From: a virus
IMG/VR virus record: IMGVR_UViG_3300032287_003559
Location: 62,001 to 126,000 of that record
Direction: 5' to 3' (one strand)
DNA: 64,000 nucleotides
Part shown: positions 25,664 to 55,242 of the stretch, piece after piece
Layout of the letters: the number at the start of each line of letters is the position of its first letter
How positions within the stretch are numbered: the first letter of the stretch is position 1
Notes under the pieces: model-generated
The model's input: the letters and a program-made list of their open reading frames with translations, nothing else
What the model was told of the DNA's origin: nothing
The model's database searches: none
Translations under genes and position numbers: made by a program

Positions 25664-25735
25664 CCGTTGGTAGTCTAGTGGTCAGGACAGGCAGACAATG
25701 CACTTGGAGTTCGGGTTCGATTCCCGACCAGCGGC
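25664..25735 (+). pseudogene. tRNA-like element with a broken anticodon arm
   Basis: 72 nt with a good acceptor (CCGTTGG/CCAGCGG), D-arm (GTCT/GGAC) and T-arm (TCGGG-TTCGATT-CCCGA). The region that should be the anticodon arm (25689-25706) cannot form a five-pair stem with a U33 loop; at best three pairs form. It is either a decayed tRNA or an RNA using only the acceptor-T half. A tRNA scan would probably call it undetermined. Confidence 0.5.
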
Positions 25736-25753
25736 CAGCAAATTTCTTTTCTT

Positions 25754-48436: not shown

Positions 48437-49909
48437 ATGAAACTCAAACAACTGATGCTTGCACCTGTTGCTCTTGGAATGATTGCTCCTGCTGCTGCGA
48501 ATGCGGCAGATCTGAATATGGCAGCAGTCAATCAATATTCTACGGAACAGGTCACAAGCGTCTCACAATTCTCTGATGTAAAGCCTACCGATTGGGCATA
48601 TCAGGCACTCAGCAACCTCGTAGAGCGTTATGGTTGCGTTGCTGGATATCCTAACGGCACCTTTGGTGGTGGTAAGGCAATGACCCGCTATGAGGCAGCA
48701 GCACTTCTGAATGCTTGCCTCGATCGTGTGACTGAAGTTACCGATGAACTCAAGCGTCTTCAGAATGAATTCTCACAAGAACTCGCTGTTCTTCGTGGTC
48801 GTGTTGATGCTGCTGAGGCACGTATCGGTCAACTGGAAGCAACTCAGTTCTCCACCACTACTAAACTGCGTGGTGAAGCAACCTTCGTTCTGGGTGGCGT
48901 TCCTGGTTATGATACCAAGACTGATGTAAGCACTCGTACTGCTTTCAACTATGATGTTCGTCTGAACTTTGATACTTCGTTTACTGGTAAGGATCTGCTC
49001 CGTACCCGTCTGCGTTCTTCTAACTTCAGTGCTGATCCTTTTGGTTCGTCTTCCTCCCTGTTCAAACTGGACAAGGCTGATAACACCCAATCGGAAACTG
49101 GCGATAACGTAGTGATTGATCGTCTCTACTATTCGTTCCCTGCTCTGAACAACCGTGCAACTCTGACCCTTGGTGCTAAGGTCCGTAACACCGAAATGGC
49201 TTGGTTGCCTACTGCATACAAGTCGGAAGTTCTTGACTTCTTTGCTGTTGCTGGTGCTCCTGGCGTTTATAACAAGGCAACTGGTGCTGGTTTCGGTGCT
49301 CTGTGGAGTCAAGGTAAGACTGGTTTCGTTGCTGGTGTAAACTATGTTGCTCAAAAGGGTGACGACAGCGAAACTGGTGTCTTTGATGAAACCAGCGGTC
49401 TGAACACTCTGGCACAAATCGGTTACCGTGGTAAGAACTGGGGTATCGGTGCTGGTTACCGTTATGGTACTGAAGGTACTCGTGTTCGCACCTACAACGG
49501 TCTGAATGGAGCTGGTGGTACTCTGGTTCCTGGTCAAACCTCTAATGGTTATGCCGTGAACGCATACTGGCAACCTACTAAGTCTGGTATCGTTCCTTCC
49601 ATCTCTGCTGGTTATGGTTGGAACACCGTGAGTGGTACTGCAAGTGCTGCTACCGATAGTCAGTCGTGGTTTGCTGGTCTCCAGTGGGCAGATGTACTTG
49701 CTAAGGGCAACTCTGCTGGTATTGCTATCGGTCAAGCACCTACGGGCGAAGACCTTGAGGCAGCAACGATGCTTGAAATCTTCTACAAGTATCAAGTTTC
49801 GGATAACATTAGTATCACTCCTGCGATCTTTTACGCAAGTGATAATCAACGCCTGATTGGTGATGCCTCTAAGTGGGGTGGCGTGATCCAGACCAAGTTT
49901 ACGTTCTGA
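48437..49909 (+). CDS. Cyanobacterial outer-membrane porin (SLH + OprB-type)
   Basis: 490 residues. Signal peptide (KLKQLMLAPVALGMIAPAAANA), one S-layer-homology domain (about 45-105: FSDVKPTDWAYQALSNLVERYG, RYEAAALLNACLD), a short coiled coil (110-135), then a beta-barrel ending in a terminal Phe. This matches the SomA/SomB-type porins of Synechococcus and Prochlorococcus. Codons are much more C/G-ending than those of the glycan genes, as expected for a host-derived or highly expressed gene. A long minus-strand ORF opposite it is a shadow. Confidence 0.93.
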   Translation: MKLKQLMLAPVALGMIAPAAANAADLNMAAVNQYSTEQVTSVSQFSDVKPTDWAYQALSNLVERYGCVAGYPNGTFGGGKAMTRYEAAALLNACLDRVTEVTDELKRLQNEFSQELAVLRGRVDAAEARIGQLEATQFSTTTKLRGEATFVLGGVPGYDTKTDVSTRTAFNYDVRLNFDTSFTGKDLLRTRLRSSNFSADPFGSSSSLFKLDKADNTQSETGDNVVIDRLYYSFPALNNRATLTLGAKVRNTEMAWLPTAYKSEVLDFFAVAGAPGVYNKATGAGFGALWSQGKTGFVAGVNYVAQKGDDSETGVFDETSGLNTLAQIGYRGKNWGIGAGYRYGTEGTRVRTYNGLNGAGGTLVPGQTSNGYAVNAYWQPTKSGIVPSISAGYGWNTVSGTASAATDSQSWFAGLQWADVLAKGNSAGIAIGQAPTGEDLEAATMLEIFYKYQVSDNISITPAIFYASDNQRLIGDASKWGGVIQTKFTF

Positions 49910-53627: not shown

Positions 53628-54323
53628 ATGAGAGTAGATCTTCATAACTTCTTTAAGCATTATGATGAAAATAATCCAAAACATGTTGCAGCAGTAGAGC
53701 AACTTGAAGTGGATCTTGCAAGTAAGAATCCAGATTTGATCGATGATGCCTCAAACTGGGTTCGCATCTATAGAACAGTTCCTGCAGTTCCGGGAATTCT
53801 TCCAGTTCCTTATTATCCACAGACAGATAACTACAGAGACGCACAAAGAACCTGTAACTCATCTTCTTGTGCGATGTGTCTAGAATACTTTAAACCAGGC
53901 ACGTTACAAGGGGCAAAGGGCGATGATGCCTATATTCAAAAGGTATTTGCTATTGGTGATACAACTGATCACTCCGTCCAGACGAAAGTTCTGGAAGGTT
54001 ATGGAGTTAAGTCACACTTCAGTTACAATCTTTCTTTCTCTGATCTTGATCGTGAGCTTGCCGCTGGGAGACCTGTCGTTATCGGGATTCTTCATAGGGG
54101 CACTTTATCTGCACCTACTGGTGGGCACATGGTTGTAGTCATCGGTAAAAAGGGTGAAGACTACGTAGTAAATGATCCGTATGGATCTTTGAATGATGGT
54201 TATACGGGAGCAGTAACCAACGGTAAAGGTGCTGTATATAAGAAATCAGATCTGATGTATCGTTGGTTAGATCATGGTAAGGATAGAACTGGTTGGGGTC
54301 GTATTTTTGATATAAAAAAGTAG
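53628..54323 (+). CDS. Peptidase C39-like domain protein (zero-frame product of a frameshifted lysin)
   Basis: 231 residues from ATG 53628 (TTG 53619 is upstream in frame). A C39-like papain fold: CNSSSCAM near residue 76 with the nucleophile Cys76, GGHMVVVIGKKGED near 166 with the His, and VVNDPYGS with the Asn/Asp. It probably cuts peptide cross-links in the cell wall or processes a virion protein. The stop TAG is directly after the slippery heptamer A AAA AAG, and a lysozyme domain continues in the -1 frame, so part of the translation probably produces a fused lysin. Confidence 0.85.
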   Translation: MRVDLHNFFKHYDENNPKHVAAVEQLEVDLASKNPDLIDDASNWVRIYRTVPAVPGILPVPYYPQTDNYRDAQRTCNSSSCAMCLEYFKPGTLQGAKGDDAYIQKVFAIGDTTDHSVQTKVLEGYGVKSHFSYNLSFSDLDRELAAGRPVVIGILHRGTLSAPTGGHMVVVIGKKGEDYVVNDPYGSLNDGYTGAVTNGKGAVYKKSDLMYRWLDHGKDRTGWGRIFDIKK

Positions 54324-54368
54324 AACCAACACCACCACCAAAAAATGACATCCCTTTGTGTGGTGTTG
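54314..54368 (+). promoter_or_regulatory. Programmed -1 frameshift site (slippery heptamer and stem)
   Basis: Slippery A AAA AAG at 54314-54320 in the correct zero-frame phase, TAG stop at 54321-54323, a 6-base spacer, then a 9-pair stem CAACACCAC (54327-54335) with GTGGTGTTG (54360-54368). The -1 frame continues as VEPTPPPKNDIP and runs into the lysozyme domain without a stop. All four elements match the standard bacterial frameshift design. Confidence 0.85.
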
Positions 54369-54811
54369 AATTAATTAAATCTTTTGAGGGATGTCGTTTA
54401 AATGCATATCCTGATCCATTAACCGGAGGTCTTCCAATCACAATCGGTTGGGGGAGTACAAAAGATTTTGATCGAACTCCTTTTAAGATGGGTAAAGTGA
54501 TTACTCAAAAGTATGCAGACACTCTACTTGAGTTTGAGTTAAGAAATAGATACCTTCCTTCCCTACAAAAAATACCATATTGGGACGAAATGAATGAAAA
54601 TCAAAGAGGGGCTTTGCTTTGCTTTGCTTACAATCTTGGTGCAGATTTTTATGGTAATTCTAACTTCAGTACTATTACAAGGATCTTAAAGAATAGGGAA
54701 TGGAATAAAGTTCCTGATGCACTATACCTTTACCGTAATCCAGGAACTAAAGTTGAAGCAGGATTAGTAAGAAGAAGAGTTGCTGAAGGAAATCTTTGGT
54801 CTAGACCATAA
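54320..54811 (+). CDS. GH24 lysozyme domain, -1 frame continuation of the C39 gene
   Basis: 163 residues in the -1 frame after the slippery site. The Pro-rich VEPTPPPKNDIP linker leads into the lysozyme: VELIKSFEGCRLNAYPD with the catalytic Glu, then TIGWG, and NENQRGALLCFAYNLG, all in T4-lysozyme/GH24 order. No usable ATG exists in this frame before the domain, and the nearest TTG at 54356 lacks a ribosome site, so it is made mainly by frameshifting. The predicted fusion is about 394 residues. Confidence 0.85.
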   Translation, partial: VEPTPPPKNDIPLCGVELIKSFEGCRLNAYPDPLTGGLPITIGWGSTKDFDRTPFKMGKVITQKYADTLLEFELRNRYLPSLQKIPYWDEMNENQRGALLCFAYNLGADFYGNSNFSTITRILKNREWNKVPDALYLYRNPGTKVEAGLVRRRVAEGNLWSRP

Positions 54812-55142
54812 AAGGAACTGCTACACCTTCATTAATCATTCTTTCATTTACCGTGACTGGATCTCCTACAAAATAAAGAGTTCCAAGTATTCTTCCGTAC
54901 TTATCTTCTTTTGTAGTCTCAATAATCCATTCACCTTCTTTTGCGAGTTCTTTTTTTAACCATTCTTTTGCTGCAAGACCTCTTTCTTTTTCTTCTATGT
55001 CCAAAGTTCTTGTTTCTGCGGCATTAATACCTTTAAGGCGAACTCTTTGAGATAAGGTAATTCCAAATCCCAAATCAATATCAACGTCAACTGTATCACC
55101 ATCAATGATTCTTTTGATTTTCTTTATTTTGTATTGATACAT
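54801..55142 (-). CDS. Staphylococcal-nuclease-like (SNase) thermonuclease
   Basis: 113 residues from ATG 55142 (upstream TTG 55157 in frame). Core motifs: RIIDGDTVDVDIDLG near residue 10, RLKGINAAETRT near 34 with the catalytic Arg and Glu, and KEDKYGRILGTLYF near 77 with the second Arg. It is a calcium-dependent DNA/RNA nuclease. It lies on the minus strand and its 3' end overlaps the lysozyme 3' end by 11 bases. No signal peptide is seen, so it acts in the cytoplasm or is packaged. Confidence 0.93.
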   Translation of the reverse strand: MYQYKIKKIKRIIDGDTVDVDIDLGFGITLSQRVRLKGINAAETRTLDIEEKERGLAAKEWLKKELAKEGEWIIETTKEDKYGRILGTLYFVGDPVTVNERMINEGVAVPFMV

Positions 55143-55242
55143 TTTCTTGATTTGCAATGAGTAATATTTTATAAATGACCCAAGCGACTCCTATGAGTCC
55201 AATACCCAATAGTATATTTACACTCCAGACTACCTCTTTCAT
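55102..55242 (-). CDS. 46-residue membrane peptide
   Basis: One hydrophobic helix (VNILLGIGLIGVAWVIYKIL) and a polar Asn/Lys-rich tail. It overlaps the start of the nuclease gene by about 40 bases and the next upstream gene by 4. Possibly a partner of the nuclease; function unknown. Confidence 0.55.
   Translation of the reverse strand: MKEVVWSVNILLGIGLIGVAWVIYKILLIANQENVSIQNKENQKNH

Follow-up and report, generated by a model that had tools for sequence, protein, structure and literature searches.

We identified, in a virus genome, a junction between a C39-like peptidase gene and a GH24 lysozyme frame that is very probably (about 93%) a site of programmed -1 ribosomal frameshifting, at which one gene would yield a peptidase and a peptidase-lysozyme fusion. 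The junction lies in a window of 64,000 nucleotides, taken from a virus record of 175 kb (bases 62001-126000). Comparison with relatives demonstrates the anatomy of the junction, its conservation, the covariation of a downstream stem and a codon constraint on the slip site. An initial annotation, made from this DNA only, had proposed -1 frameshifting here, and this reading is now supported by a signal that is conserved in viruses of picocyanobacteria, by covarying stem arms, by three different heptamers and by the cultured phage S-PM2. Frameshifting of the -1 type is well known, and the tail chaperones are its usual phage case. In phages, its programmed form is known above all from tail assembly; here it would govern the cell-wall enzymes of widespread cyanophages.

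Anatomy of the junction

The window also encodes a psbA-like Photo_RC protein, a PstS-like protein and a cluster of tRNAs, a content that fits a T4-like cyanophage. At 48437-49909, this phage record encodes a porin of the OprB type that has an SLH domain (PF04966, PF00395), and ARAGORN reports at 25664-25736 a tRNA-His with the anticodon ATG, which is unusual for His. All features of the junction are on the plus strand. The zero frame (53628-54323) starts with an ATG at 53628, ends with a TAG at 54321-54323 and encodes 231 amino acids. Its product, a C39-like peptidase of the papain fold, matches PF13529 (Peptidase_C39_2) with an E-value of 4e-14. The last codons are GAT ATA AAA AAG TAG, in which the slippery heptamer A_AAA_AAG (54314-54320) stands in zero-frame phase and abuts the stop, and the coordinates and phase given for it in the initial annotation are right. 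The -1 frame is shut just 5' of the slip site by a TGA at 54308-54310 and is open from there to a stop at 54809-54811; that it continues past the heptamer into GH24 had also been claimed. Its segment 54320-54811 encodes a proline-rich linker, which begins with VEPTPPPK, and a GH24 lysozyme domain that matches PF00959 (Phage_lysozyme) with an E-value of 9e-23 and has its E..D..T motif intact. The TGA at 54308-54310 keeps ribosomes that start further upstream in the GH24 frame from reaching this domain; within this frame, a TTG at 54356, which has no Shine-Dalgarno sequence, is a weak start candidate. The GH24 frame shares the 11 bases at its 3' end with an SNase-family ORF (PF00565) located on the minus strand at 54801-55157.

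After a spacer of 6 nucleotides, the heptamer is followed by a stem composed of a 5' arm, CAACACCAC (54327-54335), and a 3' arm, GTGGTGTTG (54360-54368). The stem has 9 perfect base pairs and a loop of 24 nucleotides, forms a hairpin when folded alone and has a p-value of about 0.005 by shuffling. In -1 frameshift signals, the RNA structure begins about 5-8 nucleotides downstream (PMC4066793). The loop contains the 5' arm (54343-54356) of a possible second stem, which would pair with 54386-54399 to make an H-type pseudoknot. This pairing has p < 0.003 in the window, where it is favoured in a pseudoknot-free fold, and it reaches significance in no more than 11 of 57 sequences, most of which belong to the subgroup of the window. 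The pseudoknot was dropped as a general feature and is kept as a possibility.

Both enzymes carry the motifs of their families. The GH24 motif E..D..T is present in all 90 homologues with a heptamer junction, and the C39 motifs with Cys, His and Asp are found as RTCNSS in 89, GGHM in 83 and DPYG in 89 of them. An AlphaFold2 model of L278, a relative in which the two domains are naturally in frame, has a mean pLDDT of 82.7 and a pTM of 0.51; its GH24 domain is confident, and the matches to the papain-like fold are weaker. Since the profile of this family finds PF00959 once in the whole record, this virus appears to obtain its one GH24 lysozyme by slipping, and no route to it other than the fusion was found.

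The peptidase has an N-terminal module of about 48 amino acids, and 79 fetched loci have more than one copy of it. Separately encoded GH24 genes of relatives carry their own copy (L005, 2531-3202; L006, 2274-2942; and others), which suggests that the fusion would also provide the GH24 domain with the module of the peptidase. In some relatives (L181, L162 and L110), the module (DLHNFFKFYDE...) is also part of a small protein of 70-72 amino acids, and this protein ends with the zinc-ribbon-like segment CPHCGK(P/S)LGK.

Conservation of the slip site and of the stem

Homologous junctions were collected by similarity searches of phage records and of IMG/VR, and by one pattern scan in which the conserved GWGRIFD end of the peptidase was the sole fixed element and the junction was left free. 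The survey yielded 230 distinct peptidase junctions. At 90 of these, a slippery heptamer stands in phase and GH24 lies in frame -1; related contigs among them are non-independent observations, and L010, which has the same sequence as the window over 6.7 kb, was left out as independent confirmation. Apart from in-frame fusions, none of the 230 junctions combines such a heptamer with GH24 in another frame. The heptamer is A_AAA_AAG at 83 junctions, U_UUU_UUU at 4 (the S-CAM7 group) and C_CCA_AAG at 3 (L103, L156 and L203). In the peptidase tree, the three C_CCA_AAG loci make one clade, and the S-CAM7 U_UUU_UUU pair is nested within a clade of fusions. The zero-frame stop follows within 0-2 codons of the heptamer in 90 of 90 cases. 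In the isolate S-PM2, the junction reads GCA AAA AAG TAA, with a stem and with GH24 in frame -1.

Peptidases that terminate in Lys-Lys use the codons A|AAA|AAG at 83 of 84 junctions, while Lys-Lys pairs in the interior of these proteins use them in 0 of 85 cases and are mostly AAG AAG or AAG AAA. This contrast indicates that the slip site, and not the protein, is under a synonymous constraint.

In the stem test, the best helix with a 5' arm 4-8 nucleotides past the heptamer was compared with dinucleotide shuffles. A stem was detected at p<=0.05 in 86 of the 90 heptamer junctions, and at p<=0.01 in 75, against 2 of 90 control junctions of the same family that have no heptamer. The mean scores were 24.1 and 10.5, respectively. 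The stems comprise 64 distinct arm pairs that covary, with several Watson-Crick pair types at most core positions, although their pairing is partly by construction, as the arms were picked as the best helix. Chimeras, made of the 5' half of one sequence and the 3' half of another, unpair, and their mean score falls from 23.9 to 12.7. The 3' arm overlies conserved GH24 codons and the 5' arm lies within the variable linker; the linker thus appears to follow the codons of the lysozyme. The 9-pair stem of the initial annotation is exact in the window, and a stem at this place is widespread in its family. The alignment of cyanophage homologues proposed there as a check finds heptamer, stop, frame relation and stem kept across many divergent contigs.

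Proposed mechanism

The junction has the X_XXY_YYZ phase, a downstream structure, a -1 frame that is under purifying selection and has no start of its own except for the weak TTG in the window, and a signal that is conserved and covaries. From these features we infer that ribosomes slip here, with an efficiency that would leave the peptidase as the commoner product. Most ribosomes would stop right after A AAA AAG and release the 231-residue C39-like enzyme. A fraction would be stalled by the RNA stem 6 nucleotides downstream, perhaps by a pseudoknot in the subgroup of the window, and would go back one base, the tandem tRNA-Lys re-pairing from AAA AAG to AAA AAA. These ribosomes would then read through the short linker into GH24 and make a 394-residue peptidase-lysozyme fusion, in which the lysozyme would be linked to the peptidase's N-terminal module. 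The two products may act in the breakdown of the cell wall at lysis or at entry. The fusion is a workable protein, as relatives encode it in frame.

In E. coli, the sole tRNA-Lys has been tied to the shift-prone site (PMC5009743). Cyanobium sp. FGCU52, which has a relative of the phage PstS, was taken as host-like; among the 40 tRNAs found in its draft genome with RF00005 and ARAGORN, there is a tRNA-Lys(UUU) and no tRNA-Lys(CUU). ARAGORN found no tRNA-Lys in the phage record.

Alternative readings of the junction

The run of six A at the slip site is a homopolymer, on which RNA polymerase could gain or lose a base, so that some mRNAs would have both domains in one frame. Such transcriptional slippage operates in Thermus dnaX (PMC5009743), two relatives (L262 and L278) have seven A and are in frame, and in the S-CAM7 group, which has eight T, slippage stays compatible with the sequence. 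In place of the long, phase-independent homopolymer expected of polymerase slippage, the run is only A6 and is always in the X_XXY_YYZ phase. Furthermore, runs in the C_CCA_AAG group do not exceed 3, and slippage by the polymerase would have no use for a covarying stem placed at the distance typical of a ribosomal stimulator. Slippage by the polymerase is thus very improbable.

Separate translation of GH24, by ribosomes that end at the C39 stop and re-initiate nearby, for example at the TTG at 54356, would leave the GH24 domain whole, and some relatives truly use ATGA overlaps. However, in 40 of 60 homologues none of the codons ATG, GTG and TTG appears upstream of the catalytic Glu, and the TTG or GTG candidates of the others come without a Shine-Dalgarno sequence in all but one case. 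Re-initiation would also leave the heptamer, the codon constraint and the stem unexplained, and it is hardly credible as the source of the lysozyme. The claim in the initial annotation that GH24 lacks any usable start holds for these 40 homologues and has to be softened slightly for the window, in view of its TTG.

A sequencing or assembly error, by which an A was lost from a true A7 and the real gene would be a plain in-frame fusion, as L262 and L278 read, has next to no probability left: it is refuted by 83 distinct A6 junctions, by the stems and the codon constraint, by two further heptamers of other letters, and by S-PM2, in which two deposits (AJ630128 and LN828717) are identical at the junction, which excludes a homopolymer artefact.

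Relatives with other layouts

Against programmed frameshifting by the ribosome stand the weak TTG of the window, the non-independence of related contigs and the fact that natural relatives manage without it, by in-frame fusions, ATGA overlaps or separate genes. The initial annotation held that homologues with both domains in one frame, or with a separately started GH24, would refute frameshifting. In-frame fusions, separate genes and own ATGs do occur in some relatives, where they make up other layouts. Four of the 90 heptamer junctions fail the stem test. In three of these, S-SRM01 (L002), L163 and L183, an ATG for GH24 overlaps the stop; L032, the remaining one, is a borderline case, with 8 base pairs and p = 0.057. 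Another relative, L288, has A7 with an ATGA overlap, and its stem is absent. Loci that gained an ATG overlap thus have no stem, and the other layouts show what replaces frameshifting once it is lost. Further relatives that have no heptamer have ATGA overlaps, or have GH24 as a separate gene.

In-frame C39-GH24 fusions are found in ACG-2014f and in several contigs. The heptamer is absent from the fused relatives L212-L220 and L243-L248, which were excluded from the recoding counts. L262 and L278 are in-frame fusions with A7 (A_AAA_AAA) and a full stem; their A7 may be real or may reflect homopolymer errors. ACG-2014f (L007, L319-L323) and L174 have kept the in-phase A_AAA_AAG, and here it is the zero frame that enters GH24, while the -1 frame hits a TGA two codons past the slip site. 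L174 retains a 12-bp stem with p = 0.003. The ACG-2014f variants have a GC-rich hairpin of 7-8 base pairs with a spacer of 5-6 nucleotides, for which support is weak, since its p-values of 0.017 to 0.053 come from near-identical sequences. If functional, slipping in ACG-2014f and L174 would truncate the protein, as in dnaX. In S-CREM1 (L004, 1480-2661), the fusion has the opposite domain order, with GH24 ahead of C39.

It is about an even bet that the ratio of peptidase to peptidase-lysozyme in cyanophages is under recoding control in either wiring, with a slip that appends the lysozyme in loci of the window, S-PM2 and S-CAM7 type and takes it away in ACG-2014f and L174, the layouts interconverting by small indels as heptamer and stem persist. 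If this is true, it would be a recoding-controlled pair of lytic enzymes whose logic was inverted in evolution. With three heptamers, about 60 stems, and lost, fused and inverted versions, these junctions make a natural evolutionary series for how frameshift signals arise and decay, and the series includes a culturable phage-host pair, S-PM2 and Synechococcus WH7803. The 'putative lysin' of S-PM2 (CAF34219) and the lysins of S-CAM7 are annotated with a start inside the GH24 region. For S-PM2, the frameshift is thus not reflected in the annotation, and the lysozyme is overlooked or shortened in public annotation.

Comparison with known systems

The use of ribosome slipping for phage lysis genes has not been clearly described before. 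The initial annotation knew of no such lysin, and in the open-access literature we found no account of this enzyme pair or of frameshifting in cyanophage lysins. That statement is qualified by a partial precedent: the PRFect paper counts lysins among known frameshifting genes, with reference to a lactococcal lysin described in 1994 (PMC10885494). This lysin reportedly depends on two reading frames that overlap; its host and gene differ from ours. The endolysins CTP1L, LysIME-EF1 and Ms6 LysA are also described as giving a long and a short product from one gene, and do so by internal starts or embedded in-frame genes. In the window, by contrast, the short product would be the N-terminal enzyme, and the second enzyme would be added by a frameshift. 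The tail chaperones of the lambda G/GT type likewise use a phage -1 frameshift to make a short and a C-terminally extended product, from other genes and for another function. A tail assembly chaperone was considered for the window and rejected, as the genes encode two hydrolases, both cell-wall enzymes. The closest likeness in signal is to E. coli dnaX, which shares with the window the heptamer A_AAA_AAG, a downstream stem and the re-pairing of tRNA-Lys (PMC5009743). The slip in dnaX truncates the protein, an orientation shared by ACG-2014f and L174, whereas the slip in the window would add a second enzyme.
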